This document shows, piece after piece, positions 14,135-34,000 of a stretch of 35,444 nucleotides of DNA (within the stretch, counting starts at the first letter, position 1; each line of letters opens with the position of its first letter). The notes beneath the pieces are model-generated. The model worked only from the letters and a program-made list of their open reading frames with translations. It had not been told where the DNA came from and ran no database searches. The position numbers were made by a program, and so were the translations under genes. Source of the DNA: Victivallales bacterium (GTDB lineage: Bacteria > Verrucomicrobiota > Lentisphaeria > Oligosphaerales > Oligosphaeraceae); the NCBI GenBank assembly GCA_017431255.1, contig JAFRLI010000172.1, positions 1 to 35,444 of the forward strand. The letters run 5' to 3'.

Positions 14135-15646
14135 ATGAAACTGAAGGGCGTTTTGTTTTGTTTGCTGCTGAGTCTGCTGGCTGTGTTTGGCGCGGAACAG
14201 GAGAAGTTCAGCTTGACGGTTGGCGCGGTCAAGGTATTGGATTTGCCGTTTGCACTGGAATCCTACCGCCTGAGTTCGAAGGGCAAAGTGACGGTGGAAG
14301 AGGTGAACAAGCAGCAGTTGCGCGTCATCGGCGTCGCCTTGGGCGAGTGCAACCTGACGGTCACTGGCGCCGGCGTCAGCATGGACTACAGCATCTCCGT
14401 GAAAGGCAACATCAACAACCTCCTCAAACGTCTGCGCACGGACTTGGAGAACATGCCGGAACTGGACATCTCCGTGAACCAGGACTACATCGTCATCAAG
14501 GGTACCATCAGCAACCCGACTAAGTGGGCGGATTACCAGAAGGTTCTGGGACTCTATGGCAATAACGTCCACAGTTTTGCGCGCTTCCAGCCGACCCCCG
14601 AAACCATGCTTAATCTCAAGAAGATGCTGGAAAATGACGGGTTCCCCTTCGTTGCGGAAGGCCAAAAGCCGAAGTTGGGCGAATTGGATATGAAAATTAC
14701 CCCCGATGCGGTCATTTTTGCGGGCGAACTCTGCAGTGCGGAAGCGATTGCCAAGATTCGCCAGACCTTGAGCACGCAGACCTGGCTGGACCTCAGCGGT
14801 GAGAACCCCTCTCCTGAAAGCGGAAAAATCCGCGGTATTCTGAACCTGAGCGTCGTTCAGACCCTCCTGGATGTCGAAGTGGTTTATGTGGCAGTGAACG
14901 AGTCTGACAGTTCCAATATCGGTGCCGGCGCACCTGATTTCACCTTGAACATCCGCTATCTCTATGACGCCGTGCTTGGCAAGGCCGCCACGAACAACTT
15001 GATGTTCGGTGCTGGCATGGGCCCGACCCTGAAGTTCCTCGCCCAGAACGGCATCACCCGTACCTACACCGCGGGACACATCACCTTTGCCAACCACGAT
15101 GACAAGGGCGGCGAACTCCACACCGGCGGTACCGTCTCCGTCAAGGTTTCCGGCACGGACAATGGCAGCCTCCAGGACATCGACTACGGTCTGACCATCA
15201 AGGTCAAGGGCGGTCTCGTTGCCCCGAACCGTGTCAAACTGGATTTGGATTTGACCAATACGTCCGCAGTCTCCTCCACGGGCGATGCCTACAGCCGCAG
15301 CACCGACACCACGAAGCAGGTGGTGTACTGCGAACTGGACAAGACCCTCGCCATCGCCGGCAGCAAGAAGATTTCCCAGGACATCTCCAACTCCGGTCTG
15401 CCCGGTTTCCGCAATACCCCCGTTCTGAAGTGGTTCGTTGCTTCTGAAGGGAAGGCCAAGAATGACACCCGCCTCTTGATTTTGGTCTGCCCGCGCGTCG
15501 GCGGTCCCAGCAAGGATTTGCAGATTGAAATCCCCCTGTCCGAGGACGGCAAGGATGTCTACAAGACGGGTTCTGGCGACCTGGAAGAGAAACTTGAAAA
15601 AGACCGCGCTGCGAAGCCCTGGTACAAGCGCTGGTTCGGGAAATAA
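14135..15646 (+). CDS. cpaC: Tad pilus outer-membrane secretin CpaC/RcpA
   Basis: A 503-residue secretin with signal peptide (MKLKGVLFCLLLSLLAVFGA). An N-terminal pilus-formation domain (FSLTVGAVKVLDLP, VTVEEVNKQQLRVIG) leads into a BON-like region (LDISVNQDYIVIKGTISN). The C-terminal secretin domain (about residues 240-460) contains the typical ending NSGLPGFRNTPVLKWFV and TRLLILVCPRV. It forms the outer-membrane channel for the Flp pilus. The ribosome-binding site AAAGGAG precedes the ATG. A strong hairpin follows the gene. No RcpB or pilotin-like gene is next to it, although the lipoprotein at 29295 could serve; that is speculation. Confidence 0.9.
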   Translation: MKLKGVLFCLLLSLLAVFGAEQEKFSLTVGAVKVLDLPFALESYRLSSKGKVTVEEVNKQQLRVIGVALGECNLTVTGAGVSMDYSISVKGNINNLLKRLRTDLENMPELDISVNQDYIVIKGTISNPTKWADYQKVLGLYGNNVHSFARFQPTPETMLNLKKMLENDGFPFVAEGQKPKLGELDMKITPDAVIFAGELCSAEAIAKIRQTLSTQTWLDLSGENPSPESGKIRGILNLSVVQTLLDVEVVYVAVNESDSSNIGAGAPDFTLNIRYLYDAVLGKAATNNLMFGAGMGPTLKFLAQNGITRTYTAGHITFANHDDKGGELHTGGTVSVKVSGTDNGSLQDIDYGLTIKVKGGLVAPNRVKLDLDLTNTSAVSSTGDAYSRSTDTTKQVVYCELDKTLAIAGSKKISQDISNSGLPGFRNTPVLKWFVASEGKAKNDTRLLILVCPRVGGPSKDLQIEIPLSEDGKDVYKTGSGDLEEKLEKDRAAKPWYKRWFGK

Positions 15647-15757: not shown

Positions 15758-17458
<1,701 letters not shown>

Positions 17459-17474
17459 TGGACGGAGGTGGAAA

Positions 17475-18356
17475 TTGTTGGACAAGCTATTCCAATCTAG
17501 TTCTTTTGTGTATGCGGTTGTATTTGCGGCGGTAACGCTGAGCATCTACATTTTGATTTCGACGCTGTACAAGGTGACGCTGGAGACGCAGGAGAACAAG
17601 CGTGGCGAGTTCGAGGAACTGAAGCGTTTCGTTAGTCTGCCGAAGTTGCTTTCGATGCGATTTTCGGGATTGTTCCTGCTGGGAACGGTGCTGGTTGTGA
17701 TTTTATTGCTGTGCGGTGTTGAAAATCCGTTCATCTACATTCCCATCGGTCTGGTCATGAGTGCCATAGGCTGGATGGCGCCTTTGTGGTATTACCGCTG
17801 GAAGGCGGCGCAGCGCAAGGAATTGTTCGAGGCAAAGTTGCTGGATTTCACGATGGGACTGGCCAGCGGTATGCGTTCCGGTCTGGGGTTGCCCCAGGCT
17901 CTGGAGGCGACCGCCAAGCGCATAGGGGAACCAATGCAGGAGGAATTGCAGACCGTCTTGCGGGAATATCGTTTCGGAATGGAACTGGCGGACGCGCTGC
18001 AGCGCCTCAACGAGCGAATGCCTAGCGAGGATATGAGCCTGCTCGTCACCACTATCAAACTGACCACCAAGACCGGCGGAAGCCTGGTCGAGGTGATGGA
18101 CAAGATGGTGGAGATGATACGCGGCCGCCGCGAGTTCCAGGAACGCCTGAAGAATATGACGGCGCAGGGGAAATTCGAGGCGATTGCAATGTCCTGCGCT
18201 CCTGTGGCCGCGTTCTTCCTGTTGTATTTTGTGGACCCTGATTTGATGCGGCCGATGGTGACAACGGGAATGGGCTGGTGCGGCATCGGGGTCGTTGCCG
18301 TGATGATTACCTGCGGCTATCTGGTCATCAAGAAGATTGTGACGATTGAGGTGTAG
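17475..18356 (+). CDS. tadB: Tad pilus inner-membrane platform protein TadB
   Basis: A 293-residue T2SS GspF-type membrane protein that forms the assembly platform with TadC. It has an N-terminal helix, a central pair of helices (FLLGTVLVVILLLCGV, IYIPIGLVMSAIGWMAPLW), the GspF domain (FTMGLASGMRSGLGLPQALEATA, KTGGSLVEVMDKM) and two C-terminal helices. No ATG fits: the start is a TTG at 17475 or 17478, after GGAGG at 17464-17468. A further upstream TTG at 17442 would overlap cpaF. It ends two bases before tadC. Confidence 0.9.
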   Translation: MLDKLFQSSSFVYAVVFAAVTLSIYILISTLYKVTLETQENKRGEFEELKRFVSLPKLLSMRFSGLFLLGTVLVVILLLCGVENPFIYIPIGLVMSAIGWMAPLWYYRWKAAQRKELFEAKLLDFTMGLASGMRSGLGLPQALEATAKRIGEPMQEELQTVLREYRFGMELADALQRLNERMPSEDMSLLVTTIKLTTKTGGSLVEVMDKMVEMIRGRREFQERLKNMTAQGKFEAIAMSCAPVAAFFLLYFVDPDLMRPMVTTGMGWCGIGVVAVMITCGYLVIKKIVTIEV

Positions 18357-18358
18357 CG

Positions 18359-19267
18359 ATGAATCATTCAGACTTGTTGACATATGTCGTCGTCTTTCTG
18401 GTGGTGTTTGTGCCGTACCTGTTCCTGCAGTTCTGCCTGGACAACCAAGGAAAGAAAAAGGAAGATCGGAGCCTGGATGAACTGCCGTTGGCGTTTCGCT
18501 GGTGCTTTGGACTGCTGAACCAACTGTCGGATGTGGGTGGCAGGCAGTTGGCGGCCTTCCAGGAAGAGCGCGCGAAGGACATTCGGAACAAACTCGTCAT
18601 CGCGAATCTGCCGATGAAGGCGGAGCATGTATTTGCGGCGGAGGCACTTTTCGGGATTGTGGGGACGGTGGTGCCGTTGCTGTTTTTTGCGCTGGTGACC
18701 AAGCGAATGGACTATGCGATTGGCGCGGGATTGCTGTTTGGAGTGGTCGGCGGACTCTATCCGTCCATGACCGTGGCAAGTCTGGCAGACAAGCGGCAGG
18801 AACTCATTATGAAGAATCTGCCGTTTGCGATTGATTTGATTGGCTCCGCCATGCGTGCCGGACTGGACTTTTCTGCGGCCGTGCGGTATTATGTTTCGAC
18901 GGAGAAAAAGACGAATCCGCTGGCGGTGGAGTTTGGTGTGATGCTGCGTCAGATGGAACTGGGGAAGACGCGCGTGGAGGCACTGGAAGACGTGGCGAAT
19001 CGCGTGCAGACGGACGATTTCCGCTCGTTCTCCGGTGCGGTGGCGCACGGAACGGAGATTGGTGCGTCCATTGTGGACACGATGCGCGTGCAGGGGGAGG
19101 AGATGCGCCGAGCGCGGTTCAACCGTGCGGAACGAAAGGCGGCGCGTGCGCCTTCGATTATGATTTTGCCGATCGCGGTGTTCATCATGCCTGCGATTTT
19201 CGTGGTGATTGGAACACCCGTTCTGATTAAGATTCAGTCCAGTGGTCTGGGAGCAATGATGCAATGA
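18359..19267 (+). CDS. tadC: Tad pilus inner-membrane platform protein TadC
   Basis: A 302-residue GspF-type platform protein, partner of TadB. An N-terminal helix (LTYVVVFLVVFVPYLFLQFC) and a mid pair of helices precede the GspF domain (LPFAIDLIGSAMRAGLDFSAAV, GTEIGASIVDTMRVQGEEMRR), ending in a hydrophobic hairpin (PSIMILPIAVFIMPAIFVVIG). The ribosome-binding site GAGGTG is within the last codons of tadB. Its stop overlaps the next ATG as ATGA. Order cpaF-tadB-tadC is the usual Tad core. Confidence 0.9.
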   Translation: MNHSDLLTYVVVFLVVFVPYLFLQFCLDNQGKKKEDRSLDELPLAFRWCFGLLNQLSDVGGRQLAAFQEERAKDIRNKLVIANLPMKAEHVFAAEALFGIVGTVVPLLFFALVTKRMDYAIGAGLLFGVVGGLYPSMTVASLADKRQELIMKNLPFAIDLIGSAMRAGLDFSAAVRYYVSTEKKTNPLAVEFGVMLRQMELGKTRVEALEDVANRVQTDDFRSFSGAVAHGTEIGASIVDTMRVQGEEMRRARFNRAERKAARAPSIMILPIAVFIMPAIFVVIGTPVLIKIQSSGLGAMMQ

Positions 19268-20916
19268 AATACCAGATTCGATTCACGGAAGGCGAATTGC
19301 AGGGGAAGACCTTCCCCCTTGGCCAGAATGCGGTCTCCATTGGACGCTCGCATTCCAATGACATTCGCGTCGGAACTCCGGATGTCTCCTCGAAGCACGT
19401 TCGGCTCACCCTGGAACCGGAAGGCGTTGTGCTCGAAAACCTGAGTTCCCGCGTCACGCAAATCGATGATATGGCGTTGCAGTTGGGTGACCGCAAGCCG
19501 CTCATGGCGGGGCAGGTTGTCGCGATGGGAAGTCTTGTCAAGTTCACCGTGGAAGTGCTTGCGGACGCGCCCGCGCCTGCGCGTGCGTCCACTGCGGATG
19601 ACAATGACGCTACCACGCCACCGCCGCCCAAGGCACCTGCCGCAAAACCCGCTGCCTCCATGGATTCGGACGTGACAATGCCGCCAAAGGCCGCCCCGAA
19701 GCCCGCGTCTCCCATGGATTCGGATCGAACGACGCCGCCCCAGGCCGCGTCTGTCGTCCCGAAACCCATTCCGCAACCGTCTCCCATGCCGACGCCAGTT
19801 CCGACGCCAGTGCCTGAGCCGGTATCGGAAGAGGGTGCGGACTCTGGGAACGAGACCATTGCGATGCAGACGCGCATGGCTTCCGCGGAAGAATTGGAGT
19901 TTATGAAGAGCAGCCATGAGAAGAAAAAGATTCGGAAGACAGGGCTGTGGCTGTTCCTGCTCGTTGTGCTGATTGCGGGTCTGGTCGGCGGGTACTACGG
20001 ATTCCTGTACAAGCCGCCAGAGAAGTTTGTCTCCTGGCCCGTGGACGAGACCGGGAAAAAACTGACTGCTGCGGTTCAGATGGAGAATTGCCCGTATCTG
20101 AAGGATATCGATTTCGAATATCCGAAACTGCCGACGACCGAGGTGGCCAAGGCACCTGGAAAGATTGTGGTGAAGACCGCGCTTGGCAAGTATCGTGACG
20201 TGCCGCTGCGCCTCACGCTGGATTATTTCCAGGACAAGAACTCGTTGACCGAGGAACGCACTTCCACCCTCGAACGATGGATGACTACCAAGACAACGGG
20301 CAGCGAAAACTGGAACTTTGACCTCATCCAGCCCATCGCCTTCTACCAGAAAGCGCACGGAATCCCCTATCTCGCAGTCTCCTACAGCCGCACGGAAAAT
20401 AACGAATCCTACGTCGGAGTTGCGGTACAGATTCGCATGGCGGACTGGATTTTCCTGCTACAGAAAGAGATTCCGACGCGTGACCGCTGGCGCGCAGAGT
20501 GGTACATCCAGCAGATGGCGTTCTTCCGTTTCTCGGAGGCATTCCTGATGAACCACTGGGAAGGGACCTCGAAGTTCCAGGAGGGGCAGCCGGCTTCCAT
20601 TCTCGCGGAGGCGAAGTCTCTGCTGCACCGCCGTTCCCCGTCGGTCTGGTTCAAAGCGGAATACCTGTTGCGGAGTGTTCTGTGCCAGGCGCAAAAGGCA
20701 GGGGAGAAGCAGGTCGTTGCGGACGCCGTCGAACTGGTTCGTGAATTGCGTGCCAGCCAGATTGAATACTACAACCAGCAGAAGATCACGTATCTGCTGG
20801 CGAAGACGCAAAAGAACGAGAAGGAGATGAAGAAAATCAGTGCGGAACTGCGCGGGGTTTTCTCCTCCGAGGAAGACTATAGATTTCATCGAATCAGGCA
20901 GGACAAATGGGATTGA
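19264..20916 (+). CDS. FHA-domain membrane protein with Thr-rich acidic linker
   Basis: A 550-residue protein. Residues 1-100 are an FHA domain (VSIGRSHSNDIRVG, VSSKHVRL), though the usual NG motif after the Ser is missing. A Pro/Ala linker (101-215) carries three copies of an Asp-Thr-Pro motif: DNDATTPP, DSDVTMPP and DSDRTTPP, then GNETIAMQT. A single membrane helix (about 226-247) puts the remaining 300 residues in the periplasm, in a region I do not recognise (PPEKFVSWPVDETGK, then helical). The linker Thr residues look like kinase targets that other FHA domains could bind. It sits between tadC and another FHA protein, overlapping both, where TadZ/TadD might be expected. Function is unknown; a signal-transducing part of the pilus platform is likely. 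Confidence 0.8.
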   Translation: MKYQIRFTEGELQGKTFPLGQNAVSIGRSHSNDIRVGTPDVSSKHVRLTLEPEGVVLENLSSRVTQIDDMALQLGDRKPLMAGQVVAMGSLVKFTVEVLADAPAPARASTADDNDATTPPPPKAPAAKPAASMDSDVTMPPKAAPKPASPMDSDRTTPPQAASVVPKPIPQPSPMPTPVPTPVPEPVSEEGADSGNETIAMQTRMASAEELEFMKSSHEKKKIRKTGLWLFLLVVLIAGLVGGYYGFLYKPPEKFVSWPVDETGKKLTAAVQMENCPYLKDIDFEYPKLPTTEVAKAPGKIVVKTALGKYRDVPLRLTLDYFQDKNSLTEERTSTLERWMTTKTTGSENWNFDLIQPIAFYQKAHGIPYLAVSYSRTENNESYVGVAVQIRMADWIFLLQKEIPTRDRWRAEWYIQQMAFFRFSEAFLMNHWEGTSKFQEGQPASILAEAKSLLHRRSPSVWFKAEYLLRSVLCQAQKAGEKQVVADAVELVRELRASQIEYYNQQKITYLLAKTQKNEKEMKKISAELRGVFSSEEDYRFHRIRQDKWD

Positions 20917-23258
20917 AGCCAAAAAAAGAGTTGCAGTTGAGGTTGGAGCACGAAGGGAAGGTGCTCTACGAGGTGTCTGCGTCGGACATCAAGGATGAAC
21001 TCACGATTGGGCGTGCCCAGGAGAGTACTTGGTGCATTCCGCCGACTGACCGTTCTGCGAGCAACAAGCATGCCGCCATCATCAAGAAGCGCGGCAACTT
21101 GATTGTCGTGGACCGTGGCAGCCGCAACGGCATTTATTTCCAGGGTTCGAAGGTTACCGAGCACAAATTGAGCGCGGGCGACCAAATCGGCATTGGCGAT
21201 TGCCGCCTCTATGCGGAAATGCCTCCCGACAAGGCGGTCAACGGTCCCGAGCGCGAGTTCAACCTGCTGGAACAACTCAACGGCGAGAAGAAAGGCACGA
21301 TGTATCAGTTGGACAAGCCGACCATCCGCATTGGCTCCGCCTCCGATTGCGACATCGTCCTCAACGATTCCGTTGTCTCCCATTTCCATGCTTCCGTTGA
21401 ACAAAAGAGTGATGGCGGCAGTTGGCTCCACGACCTCGGAAGCCGCAACGGAACCCAGGTCAACGGTACTCCCATGTCCGGTTCTATGAGCGATAGCGGA
21501 CGACTGCTCAAGGACGGAGACATCATCACGATTTCCTATATCGAACTCAAATACTGGGACAAGTACGCTGTCCACGTGCGTTCCCACTGGTTCCTCAAGA
21601 TTGTCACGGTCGTTCTGACCATCGCGGTGCTTCTGGGAGGATATTACATGTGGCAGACGGCACGCCCCTCCGCCAAGAAGGAAATCGACCAGGCGCGCGA
21701 GTTGGCGCGACAGTGCAACTTCAATGGAGCGCGCGTCCATCTGGAGAATGCCAAGACGGCTCGTCAGGCGGAACGCTATCGTGCGGAGCGTCGAGAACTG
21801 GCGTCGCAGGTGGACCAGTGGGAGGACACGGTCAAGAAGTGGGCGAAGGTCAAGACCCTGTTGGCAGACCGAAAATGGCTTGACGCCAACAAAATCCTCA
21901 GTCCGTTGCTCAGCCAGAATATGGAGATGTGGCGCTGGAATGACACGGAGGCGAACGAGGCCAAGAACGAGGCGGTCGCTACCAAGCAGGTCATTGACGC
22001 GTATGTGGAGGGACGCACCGTCCTGATGGAGGACGATTCCTCCATGGAACGTCTGGAACGTTCGACGGAAAAACTCTCCGCAGAACTCAACTCGTTGCGG
22101 CGCAAGATGCCAGATTACTGCAAGGAACTGGTCAAGTTTGCAACGGACATTGAAAATGAACTGAAGTGGACGACCAATGCCATCCATTCCATCGAAAAGA
22201 CCTTGCAGGGACTGGACGCGCTGGAGAAGTTGGACGGTGTCATCCATGACTTGGAGACGAGCCGCGACGAGGCAAAGAAGCACCTGGACGCGCGTGCCAA
22301 AACGATGATGCGCAGATGGCTCTCCCACAAGCCTTTGCGAATGGCGAAGGATGTGTTGGAACCGCTGTACAAGCTGAAGCGTGCAAAGGATGTCTTGGAC
22401 GGCAATTATGCGGCAGTGGCCTCCTTGAAGTTCTCCAAGATGGAGAAGGAACTTCCGTTGCCGACCGTCGAAGAGTGCGCGGTGTATCCGGTGATGGCGG
22501 ACAAGCGGCTGCTCATTGAGAAGTTGTTCAAGCAGTTGAACGATGATTCGCTGCAGTTGGAGCGTATTGTGAACTCTCTGAGCCGCGCGGGAATGTCCCT
22601 GGGGAAAGTTCCCGAATGCCTGAAGGCGTTGGGCGATTCCAAGTGCATTGACGCGGTTCTGGCGTGCGATGTCTTGCAGGGACCGATTCCGAAATGGAGC
22701 CGCAAGGAACCTGTCGGGGAATACGACAAGGTCGTTGGTGTGGAAGTATTTGCGGAATACTTGTCGCAGTTGCCAGGCGAATTGGACTCGAGCATTTTGG
22801 ACGAGCGTCCATTCCTGCCGGCGGTGTTCCAGGCACGTTCCATCTACGGCTATCTGGAGACGCTGTTGACCTTCCTGGACAAGGGGACGATGACGATGAT
22901 CAAGGCGCAGAAGAAGGACAACAAAGTGATGGAATTGGCGCTGGCGGTGGACGATTTGCTGGCGCAGCGCGAGGCACTGGTGGAGGATTTGATTGCACGC
23001 TCGAAGGCGTCGGAGAAGCGCGACGGTGTGATTGCGGGTGGGATGGCGTTGCTTCTTGCGAAACCGAAGCGGTTGAGTTCGGACTTTGGGGAGGAAGTGC
23101 AGGATAAGTACCGTCGGATTCGGAGGAAGATCATGGCGATGGAGGAAGGGGAGAAGACCCCGGAGCAAACCATTGCGATGCGGAAGGCGATACTGGAAAT
23201 CGGACTGCCTGGGGATTCTTTGATGAAGCAGGCGTGGGCGGAGGAGCGTGCGAAGTGA
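20907..23258 (+). CDS. Double-FHA membrane protein with long helical periplasmic region
   Basis: A 783-residue protein with two FHA domains in tandem. The first (about 10-103) has LTIGRAQES, SNKHAAI and GSRNGIYFQG. The second (118-216) has IRIGSASDCDIVL, VSHFHASV and GSRNGTQVNG, a complete phosphothreonine-binding set. One membrane helix (about 229-249, LKIVTVVLTIAVLLGGYY) follows. The last 530 residues are mostly charged helices, starting with TPR-like segments (IDQARELARQCNFNGARVH), probably periplasmic. Its ATG overlaps the preceding gene by 10 bases and its stop overlaps the next pilin gene. It may link phosphorylation in the cytoplasm to a periplasmic assembly step. No known family is recognised for the C-terminal part. 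Confidence 0.82.
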   Translation: MGLKPKKELQLRLEHEGKVLYEVSASDIKDELTIGRAQESTWCIPPTDRSASNKHAAIIKKRGNLIVVDRGSRNGIYFQGSKVTEHKLSAGDQIGIGDCRLYAEMPPDKAVNGPEREFNLLEQLNGEKKGTMYQLDKPTIRIGSASDCDIVLNDSVVSHFHASVEQKSDGGSWLHDLGSRNGTQVNGTPMSGSMSDSGRLLKDGDIITISYIELKYWDKYAVHVRSHWFLKIVTVVLTIAVLLGGYYMWQTARPSAKKEIDQARELARQCNFNGARVHLENAKTARQAERYRAERRELASQVDQWEDTVKKWAKVKTLLADRKWLDANKILSPLLSQNMEMWRWNDTEANEAKNEAVATKQVIDAYVEGRTVLMEDDSSMERLERSTEKLSAELNSLRRKMPDYCKELVKFATDIENELKWTTNAIHSIEKTLQGLDALEKLDGVIHDLETSRDEAKKHLDARAKTMMRRWLSHKPLRMAKDVLEPLYKLKRAKDVLDGNYAAVASLKFSKMEKELPLPTVEECAVYPVMADKRLLIEKLFKQLNDDSLQLERIVNSLSRAGMSLGKVPECLKALGDSKCIDAVLACDVLQGPIPKWSRKEPVGEYDKVVGVEVFAEYLSQLPGELDSSILDERPFLPAVFQARSIYGYLETLLTFLDKGTMTMIKAQKKDNKVMELALAVDDLLAQREALVEDLIARSKASEKRDGVIAGGMALLLAKPKRLSSDFGEEVQDKYRRIRRKIMAMEEGEKTPEQTIAMRKAILEIGLPGDSLMKQAWAEERAK

Positions 23259-23577: not shown

Positions 23578-23940
23578 ATGACAAGCATGAAAATGAAACT
23601 GGAACGTGCAAAACGCACCATGTTCGGCCGTTTCCTCTGCCGCATCCTGGGCGACCAGTGCGGTGCCGTGGCAATGGAGTACGTTGTGATCGCGTTGCTG
23701 GTTGCGGCGGCAGTCGTCGGTGTCGTGATGGTCTTCGGTAGCCGTATTGCGAAGATGTTCTCGCAGTCCACGCAGGCACTGACCACGACCGAAAGCGGCA
23801 TGGCTGGCCTGGCGAGCGAAGTTTCGCAGTCCCGTGAAACGGACGCTGCCCGTGTCAAGGAGATGGAAGCGCAGGGGAACACCATTCGCGGTTCCGATGG
23901 CGGCGACAGTGAAAGCGGCGAAGGGAGCAATCCTCAGTAG
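23578..23940 (+). CDS. flp: Flp-family major pilin candidate
   Basis: A 120-residue prepilin. The leader is long and basic (MKMKLERAKRTMFGRFLC). The cleavage site CG/AVAMEYVVIALLVAAA has the Flp signature Glu+5 Tyr+6, followed by a helix of about 22 residues. A polar Ser/Gly-rich tail ends at Gln-120. AAAGGAG lies 10 bases before ATG 23578, one of the best ribosome-binding sites in the locus, fitting a highly made pilin. A purine/pyrimidine hairpin near 23522-23550 lies just upstream. It is a substrate for the TadV peptidase encoded next. The tail is longer than in typical Flp pilins of 50-70 residues. Confidence 0.82.
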   Translation: MTSMKMKLERAKRTMFGRFLCRILGDQCGAVAMEYVVIALLVAAAVVGVVMVFGSRIAKMFSQSTQALTTTESGMAGLASEVSQSRETDAARVKEMEAQGNTIRGSDGGDSESGEGSNPQ

Positions 23941-23949
23941 TCTCTGCGT

Positions 23950-24060
23950 TGCCCTTGCTCCGTGCGGAGTAGGGCGTTTGCGCACGGTCGGTTTGCAGGT
24001 TGTGCTCTGTGTGAACGGAGGCACCTGCAAGCCGGGCGGAGCATTTGCGGACATTCGGCT
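23950..24060. repeat. Cluster of small inverted repeats between pilin and peptidase genes
   Basis: The 190-base gap after the pilin holds TTGCAGGT (23993-24000) and ACCTGCAA (24023-24030), an inverted pair, and GCTCCGTGCGG near 23957. Both motifs recur in the palindromic region at 35240-35384 (ACCTGCAA and GCTCCGTGCGG). This suggests a remnant of the same repeat family. A weak stem CCCTTGCTCCG/CGGAGTAGGG could also slow transcription after the pilin gene. Confidence 0.4.
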
Positions 24061-24130
24061 TCGCGGGTGTTCCTGGCGCGACCCAACGCGTGCGGAAGAA
24101 AAATCGTAAGGAATGAGGAATACTTGGTTC

Positions 24131-24649
24131 ATGTTGGTTCTGGCGACGCCGTGGCTTGCGGTGTTGTGCTGGAATGATTGCAAGTACCGCCGTCTTCCCA
24201 ACTATTTGACGTTGGGGATGTTGGCGGGTGCATTGATTTGGCGTCTGGGATATGGGCGATTGCCGATGTTTCTGGACGGTCTGTACGGAGGTTTGGCGTC
24301 TGCGCTGTTCCTGTTGATTCCGTTTTTGCTAGGAGGTGCGGGAGGCGGAGACTTGAAGATGTTGAGTGCGGTCGGTTGCATGTTGGGGTTGCGTCGCATT
24401 CCGATGTTGTTGTTTTGCACATCTGCGTCGGGGTTTGTGATGGCGGTGGGAATGTTGATTGCGGGGAAGGTGGACGGCAGCCGTCTGAAGCATTGGGCGC
24501 GTTGCGTGTTTGACTGGCGGTACGACCGCAAGGCGGGGCGCGAGGCGTTGCCGCCGAAGACCGATGAACGGGTGCGGCTTCCCTTTGGGGTGGCGATTGC
24601 GTTGGGTCTGTGGTTGACATTGGGTTTGGAACTGTTCGGGATTTCGTGA
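24131..24649 (+). CDS. tadV: Prepilin peptidase TadV/CpaA
   Basis: A 172-residue aspartic (A24) peptidase that cleaves Flp and TadE-type prepilins at the membrane. The two catalytic Asp are in CWNDCKYRRLPN (about Asp16) and GGAGGGDLKML (about Asp74, the GxGD motif). About four membrane helices are visible. Like other Tad peptidases it lacks the extra methylase domain of PilD. ATG 24131 is chosen because GAGGAA lies 10 bases upstream. The in-frame ATG at 24113, six codons earlier, has AAGGA directly against it, too close to work. It overlaps tadE as TGATG. Confidence 0.87.
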   Translation: MLVLATPWLAVLCWNDCKYRRLPNYLTLGMLAGALIWRLGYGRLPMFLDGLYGGLASALFLLIPFLLGGAGGGDLKMLSAVGCMLGLRRIPMLLFCTSASGFVMAVGMLIAGKVDGSRLKHWARCVFDWRYDRKAGREALPPKTDERVRLPFGVAIALGLWLTLGLELFGIS

Positions 24650-25314
24650 TGAAGCGCTGGAAGTTGGACATCCAAGACGACAAGGGGACGGCTCTGATGG
24701 AGTTCGTGCTCGTGATGCCGCTTTTTGTCTTCATGATATTCTGCATCATCCAGTTGGCACTGGTCTGCATGGCGAAGCAACTTCTTCACTATGCGGCATT
24801 TTCCGCGGCGCGTGCAGCGATTGTGTACCATCCGTCGGAATACAGTCAAAACGGGGTGTTTTATATGAGCAATGGGGTGGCGCACCAGGCGGCGTGCACG
24901 GCAATGTCCTGGATGGCACAGCTGCCTGGCGGTCCCAGCCCCTTGAACATTCCCGGCTGGGGAGATGTGCCGGGGTCTGGTTTCGCGTTCAATCAGGTGT
25001 TCATCGACCCGGACAACAGCGCGATTCTGCCGGATGTGCCCGCCGTGAAGGTCACAGTTGAGTTCTACTATCCGTTGCATATCCCGTTCGCCGGGGCGAT
25101 CATTGGCTATTTCAACAATGACGGCAAGGTGGATGGCAAATGGACGGAGGCGGGGCTTCTGCCTGAGGATATGGTCGAAACGTTGAGCAGCAGTAAGGTT
25201 CAGGGAGTCAATTGCTTCCGCATGCAGGAGACCTGCATCATGCCGATGCCGTGGGACAGCAATCTGTTCCCGCGCGCGGAGAAGACACCTTATCTTGGAA
25301 CGGAGGGAATCTGA
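24649..25314 (+). CDS. tadE: TadE-like pseudopilin
   Basis: A 221-residue pseudopilin with the TadE signature: DDKG/TALMEFVLVMPLFVFMI, Glu at +5 and Phe at +6 after the predicted cleavage Gly, then a hydrophobic helix and LLHYAAFSAARAA. The rest is a periplasmic beta-rich region (VKVTVEFYYPLHIPF). It is expected to be processed by TadV and to help start the fibre. The start overlaps the tadV stop, and its own stop overlaps the next ATG as TGATG, so the three genes are translationally linked. Confidence 0.83.
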   Translation: MKRWKLDIQDDKGTALMEFVLVMPLFVFMIFCIIQLALVCMAKQLLHYAAFSAARAAIVYHPSEYSQNGVFYMSNGVAHQAACTAMSWMAQLPGGPSPLNIPGWGDVPGSGFAFNQVFIDPDNSAILPDVPAVKVTVEFYYPLHIPFAGAIIGYFNNDGKVDGKWTEAGLLPEDMVETLSSSKVQGVNCFRMQETCIMPMPWDSNLFPRAEKTPYLGTEGI

Positions 25315-28226
25315 TGCAGAGCCGTACCTGGAATATCGCCATTCGCAAGTTTGCCTCGCTAGGTCGGGACGACAGTGGTGCCGTGCTGGTCATCACCCTC
25401 GCGATGTTCTTCTTCCTGTTCATGCTCGTGTCGGGCGTCTATGCCATCGGTGAATCCGTCCGCAGCCGCATTGAATTGCAGAATGCCTGCGACGCTGCCG
25501 CTTACTCCGCCGCGGTCGTGCAGGCGGACGGGCTTTCCCGCATCGCAACCGTCAATCGTGCGATGGCGTGGACCTACGTCCAGATGGTGAAACGCCAGAT
25601 GGACTACATCACCTACCGCTGGCTGAAACTGACCTACAAGCAGTTCAAAGAGGACCGCGATAACGCCGAAGATTGGTTTTTCCATTTGCTGCCGTGTGAC
25701 AAGCACCACGACCGCAAGGGAACAGGCTGGTGGTGCGGGCAAGGTTCGGGGAACGGGATGGACATTATCCGCCTCAACTACCGGATGAACATCAAAAAAG
25801 ACGATTTGAAGAAGACCCTGGACAAGATGGATTCCGCCATGGGAGACGGCAAAGGAGCCTCCAACTCTAAGGATGACAGCAGCGGTGGCGGTAGCAGTAG
25901 TGGAAGCGGCAACAGCGGCAACAGCGGGAATGTCAGCAATTCGATGTTTGGGGAAGCGGATCAGATGTTTGGAATCAATCCGCTCAATCCTGTCAAGACG
26001 GAAGTGTATGATAAGATTACAAAGATGACGGCAGCCGGGCAGAATGTGGGAGCGGCCGAGGTCGAGCAGATTTACAAGGACATTTTCACGCGCTCGTTTC
26101 CAGAGCCGCCGATGTATATTCCAGATCCCATGAGGAAAAAGCAGATGATCCTCAATCCCAAGTGGACGATGTGGAATGAGCAGTTCCGACTCTTCGTCTC
26201 TGGGAATAAAATCAATGTAAATGATTATATTTGCAAGATTTGCGGGCGTGCGATACGGGGCAATGACCACAGCGCCTGCATGCAGCACATGATGGATCAG
26301 GCCAACGAAAAGGCGCAGGCCGGGGCCTCTCAGGAACCGCCCGAATCGCCCGATCAACCCACGAAGGCTCCTGTCTCGAAATATAAGTGGGGGAACAAGT
26401 TGGCAGAGCAAATCAAGAACGACAAAAAGAGCATCGAAATGATGAATCTCGCACTGGACGCCATCAGCATGAATATGGCTCTGGGAATGCGAGAGGCTGC
26501 GCGAAACGTCCTCGAGTTCAATCTTCCACGCAATCGGGACGATGAAGTCTCCGACGATTTCTACTACACCATCCACATTCCGACGGGAAGCAACCCCTAC
26601 GGTGCGTCCCAAAGCGGAGACGCTTCCCTCGCCGGCATCTTCTCCCCTGTGTACAACACGGAGGAGTTCGAGACTCTCTTCCTGAACATGATGGATGGCG
26701 AGGTCCACGACTCGCTCCTGGAGTATTTCACGGGTACCAAATCTTCGGGCATTTTGGGCACGTTGTTCGGTGGCGGCAACAAGGCGGGCGGTCTTGACCA
26801 GTGGTTCATACGTACCTACCCGAACGAGACTTACAAGAACAATGAGAAGCACATCGAACCGACTTCCCAGAGTTACTACGCGGAGGGCATCAGTCGTTCC
26901 TACAAAAACGCCAACCGCAAGGAAGGCCGCGGCGCACTGGGGCACAACCGTGCCAACCATGTGATGTCCATTGGAGACAATCTGGGCGTTGGTGGCGGCA
27001 GTGACATGTTCGGTCTCATGAATATCTTTTCCTCCATCCTGGATTCCCTCAAGCAACAAGTCGACCTAGCCCCGAGTTGCATCAACCGTCGTACCCGTTT
27101 CCCCGAAATGTGCGACAAGATTGACGATTCCGTCGCTCTCGTCTCGCAATATCGTTGGTGTTCAGCCAAGTGGTTCTGCTTCTTCACCATCTACCTCTTC
27201 GGCATCGAGTGGCATCATCCCTTCTTCCCCAAGTTCTGGTGCGGCGACCACGGCTATGGCTTCATTTGGATCGGAGATGAACTTGACGCCCTGTTCAATG
27301 GCGGGAAGGCCCGAAAAGACTATCGCAATTGCTTTATGGGATTCGATGATACCTTCATCTTCAAGGGACATGCCCGAATCTACGGGGATGACCGCGACCT
27401 GGTGGATGAAAACTACACGGGCACCCCTGCGCGACCCTGGCTCCTCAACGAGAAGTTCTTCGGCGGAGACGGCACCATCACCGTCGGTCTCGCGCGGCGT
27501 CAGCGCAACCCGTGGCAGCGCATCATCAGCTGGCTCCACGCCTACGACTACAACAGCCCCAACCTCAGCAGCGGTATCTTCTCCCTCTTTAATGTCAATG
27601 CGGACAACTACCAGTGGACCGTCAGCACCGCCCGCGCGGCATATCGCCGCCGGACCGATGGCGTCGGCTCCACCAGTTCCGATTCGGGAGGGCATTTACC
27701 CCTTGTCTGGGAGACTGCGGGGGAGGGACCGCTGGGACTCCATTTGGGTGGCGGACAGGAGGGAGGCACGTCTGCGGCGTCCTGGCACGATTCGCATGCG
27801 ACGGGGTACGACATGAAGTTCGACGCGTCCGCCTGGCCGAACGCTCTGAAAATCAACTACGCTTCGGGCGCCAGCGGCGACCTGAAGAAACTGCGTGTTG
27901 GCTGCGTCTGCGGCAGAGGGGACAACCATTCGCGCCTGGAGCATGCCTGGAACCTGGGAACGACGGACTGGGATGCGACGCTGCTGCCCGTTCGCTATGC
28001 GAAGGGGCATTTGGCGAAATACGAATCCTGGAAGGAGAGCGGGGCCTCCTGGTCTGCGTCAAACGGGGAGGGCAGCAGTGTGTTCGGGCTTTTGGGCGGC
28101 CTGAAGTGGAGCGGATTCGGCGAGAACACCGGTTCCGTTTCGGGTGCCAGCATCATGCAAACCACCAACCAGGAAGACCGTCCTCTCGGCTCCCTGGAGG
28201 AACTGGAGAAGTTGAAAATCTACTAG
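25314..28226 (+). CDS. Very large TadG-like Flp assembly protein
   Basis: A 970-residue protein starting like the TadE/G-like family (DDSGAVLVITLAMFFFLFM, then LQNACDAAAYSAAVVQADGLSRI). It has the membrane helix but no Glu at +5, as expected for TadG-type proteins that are anchored. The long periplasmic part has a Ser/Gly/Asn-rich stretch (about 183-210) and a Cys/His cluster, C307-x2-C310-x8-H319-x2-C322-x2-H325. Its C-terminal half is rich in Trp and Gly. No von Willebrand domain is obvious. It is about twice the usual TadG length, so it may have an adhesin or fibre-tip role. The start overlaps the tadE stop; a longer in-frame extension lies inside tadE and is rejected. Confidence 0.75.
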   Translation: MQSRTWNIAIRKFASLGRDDSGAVLVITLAMFFFLFMLVSGVYAIGESVRSRIELQNACDAAAYSAAVVQADGLSRIATVNRAMAWTYVQMVKRQMDYITYRWLKLTYKQFKEDRDNAEDWFFHLLPCDKHHDRKGTGWWCGQGSGNGMDIIRLNYRMNIKKDDLKKTLDKMDSAMGDGKGASNSKDDSSGGGSSSGSGNSGNSGNVSNSMFGEADQMFGINPLNPVKTEVYDKITKMTAAGQNVGAAEVEQIYKDIFTRSFPEPPMYIPDPMRKKQMILNPKWTMWNEQFRLFVSGNKINVNDYICKICGRAIRGNDHSACMQHMMDQANEKAQAGASQEPPESPDQPTKAPVSKYKWGNKLAEQIKNDKKSIEMMNLALDAISMNMALGMREAARNVLEFNLPRNRDDEVSDDFYYTIHIPTGSNPYGASQSGDASLAGIFSPVYNTEEFETLFLNMMDGEVHDSLLEYFTGTKSSGILGTLFGGGNKAGGLDQWFIRTYPNETYKNNEKHIEPTSQSYYAEGISRSYKNANRKEGRGALGHNRANHVMSIGDNLGVGGGSDMFGLMNIFSSILDSLKQQVDLAPSCINRRTRFPEMCDKIDDSVALVSQYRWCSAKWFCFFTIYLFGIEWHHPFFPKFWCGDHGYGFIWIGDELDALFNGGKARKDYRNCFMGFDDTFIFKGHARIYGDDRDLVDENYTGTPARPWLLNEKFFGGDGTITVGLARRQRNPWQRIISWLHAYDYNSPNLSSGIFSLFNVNADNYQWTVSTARAAYRRRTDGVGSTSSDSGGHLPLVWETAGEGPLGLHLGGGQEGGTSAASWHDSHATGYDMKFDASAWPNALKINYASGASGDLKKLRVGCVCGRGDNHSRLEHAWNLGTTDWDATLLPVRYAKGHLAKYESWKESGASWSASNGEGSSVFGLLGGLKWSGFGENTGSVSGASIMQTTNQEDRPLGSLEELEKLKIY

Positions 28227-28293
28227 ATTGTTCCCGAAAGGGCCGAAAGGACCGAATCTTTCTCACCAATCCCATAGTTTCAAACCAACGTCC

Positions 28294-29295
28294 ATGAAGA
28301 ATCCAATGAAACGAATCTTGTTGATGGCATGTTTTGCTGGTCTGATGTCAACGTCCTCCTTTGCTGCGGAGAAGGAGGCGCAACCATTGTCTCCCGAGAC
28401 GGTTCAGGGCACGAAAGTCCTGCTTACGGCGGCGACGTTGCGGGATTTGGCGGCGAGGAAAAGTGAATCGGCGGTGAAAGCGTTGTTCTCTTCGCGCGGG
28501 GAGTTGCGCTGGCAACGCGTGACCAGCGAGTTTTCCGAGGAGCAACTCAATGACTTCTTCCTCGGCTCCATCATCATGGGCAGCAAGAACCCCGATTACT
28601 CCGCGCTCTACAACCCCTTCTGGGACACCCTCCTCCTACTCAACTCCACAGGACTTCCCGATGTCCCGAAGGTCGACCGCTTCGCCTTCGTGAGCGGACA
28701 CAAGTTCCGCGGGGAACCGTATGCAATGAACCCCGAAGCCGTGGAGGGCACCGTCCCGGATGCAAATCCCTACGCCGTAGACCTCTGGAACGTCTGTTCG
28801 CGTACCAAGAAGCATTATGAGACGCTCTACGCCCCGAAGGCGGCGTCGGAACTGTCCCGCTTCATGGTGACGGACCTCAAGGACATCGAACAGATTCAGA
28901 TTCGCTCGGCCATCCGCCTGCGCCTGTTGCTGAAGTTCATGAAGAACAAGCCGATGCAGCGCGAAGCCCAACGGATTTCGCGGTATCTGACTGCCGGGAA
29001 CGAGGAGAAGATGAAGAAGTATTTCAAGGATGGAGGTGCCAATTTCATCCCGCAGTTCGTGCGGTTGAACCCGTTGCTGCGCCAGAAGTACATCCCATAT
29101 TGCTACTTCCCCGGAAAGGACGCGACCCTGTTCGTGTTCTTCAATTCGGAATTGCCGCGCATCATCGCCACGGTGACGATCCCCAGCAAGAGTTTCACCC
29201 GCATCTTCGAATGGTATGACCTGATGGCGTCCGAGGAATTGCTGACGGCGTGGAACAGCGTCAAGGAAGTCAAGGAAGAGAAGGAGAACAAATAA
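28294..29295 (+). CDS. Exported protein of unknown function in the Tad locus
   Basis: A 333-residue protein with a Sec signal peptide (MKRILLMACFAGLMSTSSFA) and otherwise no recognised domain. The mature part is soluble, mixed alpha/beta, with many basic residues and a C-terminal EKENK tail. Two Met codons (28294 and 28306) are possible starts and neither has a good ribosome-binding site. I use the first. Its stop overlaps the lipoprotein ATG (TAATG). It is probably periplasmic and part of the pilus locus by position only. Confidence 0.65.
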   Translation: MKNPMKRILLMACFAGLMSTSSFAAEKEAQPLSPETVQGTKVLLTAATLRDLAARKSESAVKALFSSRGELRWQRVTSEFSEEQLNDFFLGSIIMGSKNPDYSALYNPFWDTLLLLNSTGLPDVPKVDRFAFVSGHKFRGEPYAMNPEAVEGTVPDANPYAVDLWNVCSRTKKHYETLYAPKAASELSRFMVTDLKDIEQIQIRSAIRLRLLLKFMKNKPMQREAQRISRYLTAGNEEKMKKYFKDGGANFIPQFVRLNPLLRQKYIPYCYFPGKDATLFVFFNSELPRIIATVTIPSKSFTRIFEWYDLMASEELLTAWNSVKEVKEEKENK

Positions 29296-31761: not shown

Positions 31762-32101
31762 CCTGTTCGCCATCCTAGTCTCTTGCCTCTTCCTCTGGCC
31801 TGCGTTGGCGCAGGACCCCGGGTACGGCTCTGCGTTGACGGAACCCGTCCCCTCGGGCGGCTGGCAGAAGAATGGCGAATTGCCTTGCTCCTTCGGTGCG
31901 GCGAAAGTCCGCATGAGAACGCAGATGGAACGCAAGGGTTTTACTCTCAAGCATGAAATTGACCTTGGAAATCGGGGGGAACGCTGCTTGCAACTATGGC
32001 AGAGGGACCAGGACAACAAGCAGTGGCTGGTGATGCTCTGGCGGAAAAATGTCGATTTGACAGGGTATTCCATTGGGGAAATCCAGGAAAAGAAAAAATG
32101 A
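31751..32101 (+). CDS. Small exported protein of unknown function
   Basis: A 116-residue protein with a signal peptide (MRNSLFAILVSCLFLWPALA) cleaved before QDPGYG. The mature part of about 96 residues is polar with strand-like segments (GFTLKHEIDLG, QWLVMLWRKN) and has no recognised motif. The ATG overlaps the end of the TadE-like gene and no clear ribosome-binding site is seen, so coupled translation is likely. Its stop overlaps the phosphatase start (ATGA). A periplasmic role in the pilus locus is inferred from position. Confidence 0.6.
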   Translation: MRNSLFAILVSCLFLWPALAQDPGYGSALTEPVPSGGWQKNGELPCSFGAAKVRMRTQMERKGFTLKHEIDLGNRGERCLQLWQRDQDNKQWLVMLWRKNVDLTGYSIGEIQEKKK

Positions 32102-32940
32102 CTATGGACGGTGGACGATACAATTATGTAGAAGTTGCGGCGATGTCCGACATGGGACGGATTCGCAAGAACAATGAGGATTCGTTTCTGAGCGAACCCG
32201 AAGCCGGTTGCTTTGTGGTTGCCGACGGATTGGGCGGCGGAGCCGCGGGGGAGGTCGCCTCGGAGATGGTGATCACCAACCTGAGGAAAGCCGCCACCAG
32301 CACGGCGGAGGATTCTCCAGGATGCCGGAAATACGCGCTGCAACAGGCGTTGCACAAGGCGAACGCAAGTGTCGTGAACTATCGGGATTCCCATCATTAT
32401 TCCGCGATGGGGTCCACCGTGGTGATGCTGGTGCTGAATCCCTGGAAGGCAGAGGACGCGTTTGTGTGCCACATCGGGGACAGCCGCCTGTACTGCTTCC
32501 GTGGCGGAGAATTGTTCTGCGTGACACGCGACCACAGCGTGAGGAATGAAATGAAGAGCAAGGGCATCGATAAGTCCATTCCCGAAAAGGTCGCCAAGGC
32601 GCTCACGCGTGTCATCGGCGGCAATGGCTATCTCGTGCCCGAATGGCAGAAGGTCGCCATTTGCCCGGAAGACCGTTTCCTCCTTTGTTCGGACGGCATC
32701 CTCGTGCTGCCTGACGAACAGATTGAACAGGTCTTCCGCGAGAAGACCACGCCGCAGGAAGTCGTCGAGGAACTGCGAACCCGCGTCCTCGCAGCAGGCG
32801 CTCCCGACAACCTGACCGCCATCTGCGTGAAGGTCGGTTCCACCCTTCCACCACCGGAAACCATCGACAAATGCGACCAGGAGGAGAGTGACCTCCTTCT
32901 CAAAGTCGCAGAGGAGAGAAAAGACTATGGAGCAAACTAA
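32098..32940 (+). CDS. PP2C-family Ser/Thr protein phosphatase
   Basis: A 280-residue PPM/PP2C enzyme that removes phosphate from Ser/Thr using two metal ions. Motifs are in order: SDMGRIRKNNEDSF (Asp18), VVADGLGGGAAGE (Asp43), GSTVVMLVL, HIGDSRLYCFRGGEL, DRFLLCSDG (Asp199) and APDNLTAICVKV (Asp237, Asn238). It is cytoplasmic, with no membrane segment. ATG 32098 overlaps the preceding stop and follows AGGAAAAG. The gene sits inside the Tad locus with three FHA-domain proteins, its likely phosphoprotein partners. The matching kinase is not in this window. The layout recalls the PpkA/PppA/Fha module of type VI secretion. The 14-base overlap with the next gene points to joint expression. Confidence 0.92.
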   Translation: MTMDGGRYNYVEVAAMSDMGRIRKNNEDSFLSEPEAGCFVVADGLGGGAAGEVASEMVITNLRKAATSTAEDSPGCRKYALQQALHKANASVVNYRDSHHYSAMGSTVVMLVLNPWKAEDAFVCHIGDSRLYCFRGGELFCVTRDHSVRNEMKSKGIDKSIPEKVAKALTRVIGGNGYLVPEWQKVAICPEDRFLLCSDGILVLPDEQIEQVFREKTTPQEVVEELRTRVLAAGAPDNLTAICVKVGSTLPPPETIDKCDQEESDLLLKVAEERKDYGAN

Positions 32941-34000
32941 TTCCTTTCTGATTCTGTTTCTGGCACCCGTCAAGGAGTTTCTGGAGGACGACGATGTCTC
33001 CGAAATCCTCATCAACGGCCCCAATCAAATCTACATCGAACGGCACGGCAAACTGGAGAAGACGGACGCAAAGTTCGTCAGCGAACCCTCTTTGCGCGCG
33101 GCGGCATCCAACATCGCGAAGTCCGTCCAGCGCATGCTTAATGACGACAATCCGCGACTGGACGCCCGTCTGCCCGACGGCAGCCGCGTCCACGCCGTCA
33201 TCCCGCCCCTGAGCCGTTGCGGCACCGTCATCGCCATCCGCAAGTTCAAGAAGGACACGCTGACGATTGACAAGATGCTTTCCTACGGGAGTCTCTCCCC
33301 TGACGCGCAGAAACTCATGCGCGCGGCGGTCCTCCTGCACAAGAACGTCATCGTCTCGGGCGGTACCTCCTCCGGTAAGACCTCCGTCCTGAATGCGCTG
33401 AGCAGTTTCATTCCCGCGAACGAGCGCGTGCTCGTCATCGAGGACGCGAGCGAATTGCAGTTGCAGCAGGAGCACGTCGTCAACTTCGAAACCCGCAAGC
33501 CCGACAAGAACGGCAACGGCGAAGTCACCATCCGCGACCTGATCGTCTCCTCCTTGCGCTTGCGTCCCGACCGTCTCGTCATCGGTGAAATTCGTGGCGG
33601 CGAGGCACTTGACCTCCTCCAGGCACTCAACACCGGCCACGCCGGCTCCATGTCCACCATCCATGCCAATACCCCGCTGGACTGCCTGTTCCGCTTGGAA
33701 ACCTGCGCGCTCCTCAGCGGCGTCGAAATCCCCTTGATGGCCTTGCGCTCCCAGGTCGCTTCCGCCATCGATATTGTCGTGCATACCGCACGCCTTTCGG
33801 ACGGATCCCGCAAGACCATGGCCATCTCCGAAGTCCTGCCGCTTAAGAACGGCGAATACCAGACGCGCGACCTCATTGCCTGGAAAACCGAGGGGCTCAC
33901 CCCCGAAGGCAAGGTCAAGGGATCTTTCGTTCTGAAGGAGAAACCCACCTTTGCCGAGCAGGCTGCTTTGATGGGCATCGAACTTCCGGAATACCCGTAA
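32927..34000 (+). CDS. Second CpaF/TadA-type secretion ATPase
   Basis: A 357-residue VirB11/CpaF-family ATPase without FHA or long N-terminal domain. It shows VSEILINGPNQIYIERHGK, DARLPDGSRVHAVIPP, Walker A GGTSSGKTS (145-153), LRLRPDRLVIGEIRGGEALDLLQALNTGH and STIHANTPLDCLFRLE. It is clearly paralogous to the FHA-CpaF at 15758 but not a recent copy. ATG 32927 follows GGAGAG within the end of the phosphatase gene. A second motor could retract the fibre, serve the second set of pseudopilins, or form mixed rings. In type IV pili PilT does retraction, but a dedicated Tad retraction ATPase is not generally known, so this is speculation. Confidence 0.9.
   Translation: MEQTNSFLILFLAPVKEFLEDDDVSEILINGPNQIYIERHGKLEKTDAKFVSEPSLRAAASNIAKSVQRMLNDDNPRLDARLPDGSRVHAVIPPLSRCGTVIAIRKFKKDTLTIDKMLSYGSLSPDAQKLMRAAVLLHKNVIVSGGTSSGKTSVLNALSSFIPANERVLVIEDASELQLQQEHVVNFETRKPDKNGNGEVTIRDLIVSSLRLRPDRLVIGEIRGGEALDLLQALNTGHAGSMSTIHANTPLDCLFRLETCALLSGVEIPLMALRSQVASAIDIVVHTARLSDGSRKTMAISEVLPLKNGEYQTRDLIAWKTEGLTPEGKVKGSFVLKEKPTFAEQAALMGIELPEYP

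Follow-up and report, generated by a model that had tools for sequence, protein, structure and literature searches.

Conserved linker threonines in an FHA membrane protein of a Tad pilus locus from Lentisphaeria: candidate sites for a phospho-switch

The DNA analysed here (the window) is a whole contig, C198, of 35,444 bases, from a 3.54 Mb assembly (89.8% complete) of a Victivallales bacterium. It encodes a membrane protein with an FHA domain, here called FHA-TM, and the original prediction, made from the letters alone, was that repeated threonine motifs in the linker of this protein could be kinase targets bound by the FHA domains of neighbouring proteins. The locus raises the question of whether these threonines are kept as functional residues would be, and of which encoded proteins might phosphorylate, read and dephosphorylate them.

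Gene content of the cluster

The cluster encodes, in order, a CpaB-like protein, a secretin, FHA-CpaF, TadB, TadC, FHA-TM, a double-FHA membrane protein (FHA2-TM), Flp, a prepilin peptidase, TadE, and a TadG-like protein, followed by two proteins without Pfam assignment, a TadE-like protein, a PP2C-family phosphatase, a second CpaF, and a DUF3592 protein (Table 1). The CpaB-like and TadE-like assignments were made by eye, and the Flp pilin scored 29.4 bits against a Pfam cut-off of 32.2. With secretin, CpaF, two T2SSF proteins, Flp, prepilin peptidase, and TadE/TadG clustered, the locus is, judging from the encoded families, a Tad pilus system. A Pfam scan of 19 window proteins detected no T6SS family, and the overlap with T3SS was restricted to the secretin family, the remainder being Tad-type or other. 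TadC, FHA-TM, and the double-FHA protein were adjacent in all 10 distant neighbourhoods inspected, which had been picked for holding FHA-TM.

Table 1. Coordinates of the pilus cluster and of the linker motifs of FHA-TM in the window.
Feature	Position	Strand	Basis or remark
Secretin	14135..15646	+	Pfam
FHA-CpaF pilus ATPase	15758..17458	+	Pfam T2SSE + FHA
TadB and TadC platform proteins	17442..19267	+	Pfam T2SSF
FHA-TM protein, 550 aa	19264..20916	+	ORF; Pfam FHA and Yop-YscD_cpl; AlphaFold2
Copy 1, DNDATTPP (T117/T118)	19600..19623	+	
Copy 2, DSDVTMPP (T138)	19663..19686	+	Thr column kept in 9/9 rows
Copy 3, DSDRTTPP (T156/T157)	19717..19740	+	T156 column kept in 9/9 rows
Juxtamembrane element GNETIAMQTRMASAEE (T198, T203)	19846..19893	+	contains NETIAMQTRMA
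FHA2-TM, membrane protein with two FHA domains	20907..23258	+	Pfam
Flp pilin, prepilin peptidase, TadE	23578..25314	+	Pfam; Flp under cut-off
TadG-like protein	25212..28226	+	Pfam Tad
PP2C-family phosphatase	31996..32940	+	Pfam PP2C_2, 1e-11
Second CpaF-type ATPase (CpaF2), without FHA	32888..34000	+	Pfam
DUF3592 protein directly after CpaF2	34040-35230		Pfam

Two proteins encoded at 28228-31076 gave no Pfam match above cut-off, and the second of them contains internal repeats, recognised by eye, with counterparts of varying length among relatives. No counterpart of the DUF3592 protein was found in the relatives' clusters searched. A search of 72,556 plasmid records (E 1e-5) gave no match to FHA-TM. 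A relative is encoded on each of nine named contigs, most of them labelled Victivallales or Lentisphaeria/Lentisphaerae, and faeces, rumen, or omasum is mentioned in the labels of five.

Threonines in the linker of FHA-TM

FHA-TM is composed of an FHA domain (residues 1-100), a linker (about 102-204), a helix that includes the transmembrane segment (208-248), and a C-terminal domain (250-545). In an AlphaFold2 model built on a 15-row alignment, pLDDT was about 90 for the FHA domain and mostly over 90 for the C-terminal domain; it fell below 50 for linker residues 102-166 and 171-204, and the linker is predicted to be disordered. The position of KKKIRK, immediately before the helix, suggests that the FHA domain and the linker lie on the cytoplasmic side, and the C-terminal domain would be periplasmic. 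The protein scored 32.2 bits against the FHA profile PF00498 (cut-off 20.7) and 39.2 bits against Yop-YscD_cpl (cut-off 33.2), and a Foldseek search with the model returned matches to YscD/PscD domains of FHA size. Cyanobacterial PsbP (2xb3; E 9.3e-6, 172 columns, TMq 0.21) was a further hit of this search and appears to correspond to the C-terminal domain. No ABC transporter domain was matched in FHA-TM by Pfam at E 0.001.

As had been reported, the linker carries DNDATTPP, DSDVTMPP, and DSDRTTPP, then GNETIAMQT; these lie between positions 19600 and 19872. The three copies share the pattern D-x-D-x-T-x-P-P, and GNETIAMQT (T198, T203; nt 19846-19872) is a separate motif and not a fourth copy. 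The threonine codons differ (ACC for T117, ACA for T138, ACG for T156), which makes it unlikely that the copies arose by tandem duplication very recently. The corresponding DNA pattern, chosen post hoc once the copies had been seen, had four matches in the 3,539,594-base assembly, three of them in this linker, and the fourth is apparently antisense because it sits opposite a 411-aa ORF; the reversed pattern, used as a control, had one match. When the threonines of the window protein were relabelled over non-acidic positions, the presence of Thr at one common offset from the three acidic clusters gave p 0.008, and a looser count of acid-preceded Thr was not significant (p 0.055 by full shuffle, 0.12 relabelled). 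The common-offset test gave p below 0.01 in seven of nine proteins (the window and eight orthologues), and was failed by G021 (p 0.94) and G024 (p 0.18). The principal support for the reality of the repeats is the orthologues and not single-protein statistics.

These nine rows are the window and the eight family orthologues with a complete linker; G022, split over two contigs and with an incomplete linker, was excluded. Three to four acidic-Thr copies were found in the window and in each of the eight orthologues (8/8), with variable flanks (for example, DDDKTKPPP in G006, DDDATVPPP in G028, DDDATNLNIK in G025, and DEDRTAIDL in G021). When every ordered pair was compared, motif threonines were matched by Thr at 182/233 aligned positions vs. 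70/348 for the other linker threonines, T198 and T203 were each kept in 72/72, and a lost motif Thr was never seen replaced by Ser. These results bear out the earlier proposal that Thr is the constant residue while the intervening sequence drifts, and the loss of Thr with retention of Pro/Ala composition, named beforehand as the outcome that would speak against it, was not seen in the alignment. The full D-x-T-x-P-P form did not hold up as well: Thr was kept, but Pro-Pro after it was found only in the window, G006, G018, G019, G027, and G028, and was absent from G021, G024, and G025. The adjacent FHA-CpaF also has a linker rich in Pro and Ala, and in this linker acid-preceded Thr was absent in 10/10 proteins, with rule-based, uneven linker limits that extend into the ATPase in G018, G006, G021, and G024 and take in part of the FHA domain in G022 and G025. 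A metal-binding D-x-D-x-T site is disfavoured, as Thr is constant while the acid spacing drifts. In the window, FHA2-TM also has TIAM at its C-terminus; this was set aside as a coincidence, being absent in the six other orthologues aligned there.

T198 and T203 were invariant in all 15 rows of an alignment with 22-71% identity to the window (G005, G013, G022, and G045 excluded), and were the sole invariant residues of the linker. The spacing T-x4-T was found at the juxtamembrane site of 45/52 proteins, a count that allowed, for G018b, G008, G029, and G033, a looser pattern at the second Thr, set by eye; the 15-row alignment independently positions the juxtamembrane Thr of these four. G013 has one additional residue between the two threonines, and six members of one subfamily have the second Thr only. 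T198 and T203 are thus, from their conservation, the strongest candidate sites of the linker.

Across the class Lentisphaeria, 52 linkers from 45 genomes were compared, the window included (18 proteins, 14 loci, and 20 stretches). They are a subset of the 92/197 genomes with a match, some of which match over the FHA domain only; the N-truncated G045 was left out, the sequences of G005 and G022 are partial, and linker ends were set by rule, with a few mis-cut (15 residues for G101_L172, 399 for G163_L173). Other families have repeats of their own, such as KKTVIP, DPDKTAIP, and DKTILDEP, and GETRTDPGEMKTCPGE in G161. Averaged over 50 proteins, the context of linker Thr was enriched in acidic residues at -2/-3, in Lys/Arg at -1, in aliphatic residues at +1/+2, and in Pro at +3. 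The slot (D/E/N within 4)-?-[VIAMTNKL]-[ILPV]-P was occupied in the 52 linkers by Thr in 55/93 cases vs. 8.2 expected and by Ser in 5 vs. 7.6, counts that are partly circular, the form of the slot having been set after the Thr profile was viewed. Acid-preceded Thr numbered 139 vs. 93.4 expected, the highest of 400 relabellings reaching 120; singly, just 7/52 linkers gave p<0.05, and the distant linkers of G018b, G029, and G030 had none. As shared ancestry is left in by the shuffles, these class-wide numbers are descriptive and no proof. The linker of G094 (L171) contains eight tandem EEGEMTSVT units, and its Thr sites thus appear to have multiplied recently. Elsewhere in the window genome, a second, small FHA protein (L001, G000:C308) has a Thr-rich stretch ahead of a hydrophobic segment.

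Candidate readers, kinase and phosphatase

An Arg, a Ser, and an Asn of the FHA fold are the residues that contact phosphothreonine. All three are present in FHA1 of the double-FHA protein in 8/8 rows, and in its FHA2, Ser replaces the Arg in 8/8 rows. The FHA domain of FHA-TM keeps Arg and Ser, with Asn in 1/9 rows (G028); in that of FHA-CpaF, Arg and Ser are likewise retained, and the Asn slot is filled by Ala or Gly in 10/10. In the window, Arg, Ser, and Asn thus occur together in only one of the four cluster FHA domains, and phosphothreonine reading by all of them cannot be assumed. Since it has the three residues, FHA1 is the likeliest reader, and FHA2 is probably not one.

A Ser/Thr kinase gene lies directly behind CpaF2 in 8/8 family relatives for which the junction sequence was available (G006, G019, G021, G022, G024, G025, G027, and G028), and a PP2C gene precedes this pair in six of the eight. 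CpaF2 and the kinase gene lie apart from FHA-TM in G022 and G025, on another contig with no recognisable Tad neighbours; in G013, kinase and PP2C share a contig with FHA-TM. Among the 10 distant neighbourhoods, a kinase-like match was found near FHA-TM in eight (seven of them scoring above 140 bits, the match in G089 just 43) and PP2C in seven, and where CpaF2 was within the stretch (n=5), the kinase followed it immediately only in G126. No kinase was found within the stretches examined of G161 and G124, nor a kinase match in those of G018b, G029, G030, G033, G008, G004, G005, and G045. L183, L185, and L188 are FHA-kinase fusions, recognised by eye, near a Tad cluster in G094, G113, and G167.

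In the window itself, PP2C is present, and the DUF3592 gene stands behind CpaF2, with no kinase there. The window genome has 21 Pkinase matches, and its best match to the cluster kinase of the relatives, in a one-way search, reached 75% over 342 aa. This kinase (L099 3792-7127) carries a C-terminal FGE-sulfatase domain and is encoded on a 12-kb contig, C144, without Tad genes; it has perhaps relocated and gained a new C-terminus. The kinases of several relatives have repeated Thr motifs of a related kind in their own linkers (DVTMPTMA in G019, ELEVTLQTMPQ in G027, ETALTIDQIP in G021, and AELTMETIAQP in G025), and that of the window genome has a single GVTLPTMAG. When the kinase and FHA-TM linkers of seven family genomes were compared, the true clade labelling ranked first (48/5040 permutations, i.e., 1/105 distinct labellings; 240/5040 with positions +1 to +4 only). 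The match did not extend over the class (p 0.11 for 13 genomes, 0.30 for 11 lineages), and covariation of the two linkers is not claimed.

Proposed switch, alternatives and known systems

The phospho-switch reading of the original prediction is partly supported by the adjacent FHA and PP2C genes and by the kinase gene of the relatives. We propose that FHA-TM may be a phosphorylation-controlled membrane scaffold or anchor of the Tad pilus and a multisite substrate. The membrane Ser/Thr kinase encoded beside CpaF2 in close relatives would phosphorylate threonines of the cytoplasmic linker, namely the juxtamembrane T198/T203 and the repeated D-x-D-x-T sites, the latter raising valency. The phosphothreonines would be bound by partner FHA domains, above all by FHA1 of the double-FHA protein and perhaps also by that of FHA-CpaF, and this binding would gather ATPase, platform, and scaffold into active assembly, and the PP2C of the cluster would reverse the phosphorylation. 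The probable explanation, held with moderate confidence, is that Tad assembly is controlled by a kinase/phosphatase switch in which FHA-TM is the substrate and partner FHA domains are the readers; phosphorylation, kinase identity, reader-site pairing, scaffolding, and the effect on the pilus are all steps that we infer. A broader and more tentative suggestion is that, several Lentisphaeria families may assemble their Tad pili on a multivalent membrane scaffold driven by phosphothreonine and made up of a transmembrane kinase that has a Thr-rich linker itself, PP2C, an FHA ATPase, and two FHA membrane proteins. Such a scaffold could condense and disperse as linker sites are phosphorylated, the number of these sites being tunable (three repeats here, eight in G094) and T198/T203 forming the core switch.

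T198/T203 might alternatively be the sole regulatory phosphosite, the mid-linker copies serving as kinase docking sites, decoys, or minor secondary sites. The invariance of the pair (15/15, with T-x4-T in 45/52) fits this, as does the variable number of mid-linker copies and their lack in several distant members, but several families have such copies with their own flanks and the same Thr, and in close orthologues, these threonines are kept at the rate given above (182/233); we regard a single-site switch as unlikely. Somewhat less likely still, the linker could be a plain flexible acidic Pro/Ala tether, with Thr kept for some other short-motif or solubility reason and with structural FHA domains acting free of phosphorylation. 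The missing canonical residue in three of the four window FHA domains would agree with such a tether, and the part of PMC11217815 available to us describes FHA domains of the T7SSb protein EssC that have no binding site and function without phosphothreonine. Against a plain tether stand the Arg, Ser, and Asn of FHA1 in 8/8 rows, the linkage of PP2C genes and, in relatives, of kinase genes, and the FHA-CpaF linker, which is also Pro/Ala-rich but has no acid-preceded Thr in 10/10. Linkers rich in Thr, Pro, and Ala, as that of FHA-TM is, are also a common setting for glycosylation. O-glycosylation is nevertheless highly improbable here, as the linker is on the FHA side of the membrane segment, which is taken to be cytoplasmic from KKKIRK, and Ser is not favoured in the Thr slot.

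The favoured kinase/phosphatase switch has partial precedents. FHA domains on Tad components have already been noted elsewhere, in Kil and in CpaF class III; what is added here are specific candidate sites. The locus offers such sites (T198/T203, then the repeats), a phosphatase, a reader, and a kinase family, linked over many genomes, and with these sites and partners, the phospho-switch idea is directly testable with peptides and mutants. The accessible portions of PMC12019362, PMC8460266, PMC11217815, and PMC4858521 give no account of such an arrangement, the subscription literature being mostly outside this survey. Few motifs have been described for bacterial phosphosites; those given in the part of PMC6888350 that could be consulted include pT-x-P and an acidic residue ahead of pThr.

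Kil of Myxococcus xanthus is described, in the excerpts available of PMC8460266, as Tad-like and rich in FHA proteins, its CpaF ATPase also starting with an FHA domain; a signalling role of FHA, or a phosphorylation cascade, is suggested there, and no phosphosite is named in those excerpts. Kil has, according to the same excerpts, a single ATPase and no TadG, whereas the present cluster encodes a TadG-like protein and a second CpaF ATPase besides FHA-CpaF. CpaF class III ATPases have an N-terminal FHA domain, a disordered region, and CpaF, with no phosphosite named in the part of PMC12019362 at hand; FHA-CpaF resembles them in its N-terminal FHA domain, but the Thr linker sits in a separate membrane protein. 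FHA-TM has a YscD-like cytoplasmic domain, as has the T3SS inner-ring protein YscD, but among the 19 window proteins scanned, only the secretin family is shared with T3SS.

A further comparison is with Rv1747 of Mycobacterium tuberculosis, whose condensates are favoured when PknF phosphorylates it and are reversed by PstP, as stated in the available part of a review (PMC9312465). Both are membrane proteins with an FHA domain and a disordered linker containing several candidate phosphothreonines, and FHA2 of the double-FHA protein matches an Rv1747 FHA chain (E 1e-7). Unlike Rv1747, FHA-TM is no ABC transporter and has a different domain order.

In T6SS, a membrane Ser/Thr kinase, a phosphatase, and an FHA protein are encoded with an envelope machine that phosphorylation activates, as set out in the portion of PMC12607579 that was accessible. 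The present cluster, with FHA and PP2C genes in the window and a kinase gene behind CpaF2 in close relatives but not here, resembles PpkA-Fha-PppA of Pseudomonas and Acidovorax, and TssL-Fha of Agrobacterium. It differs from PpkA-Fha-PppA in that the machine is a Tad pilus, in having three FHA proteins, including the ATPase, and a multisite Thr linker, and in that the switch is a proposed one here. If the proposed switch is real, threonine phospho-switching of envelope machines would extend beyond T6SS.
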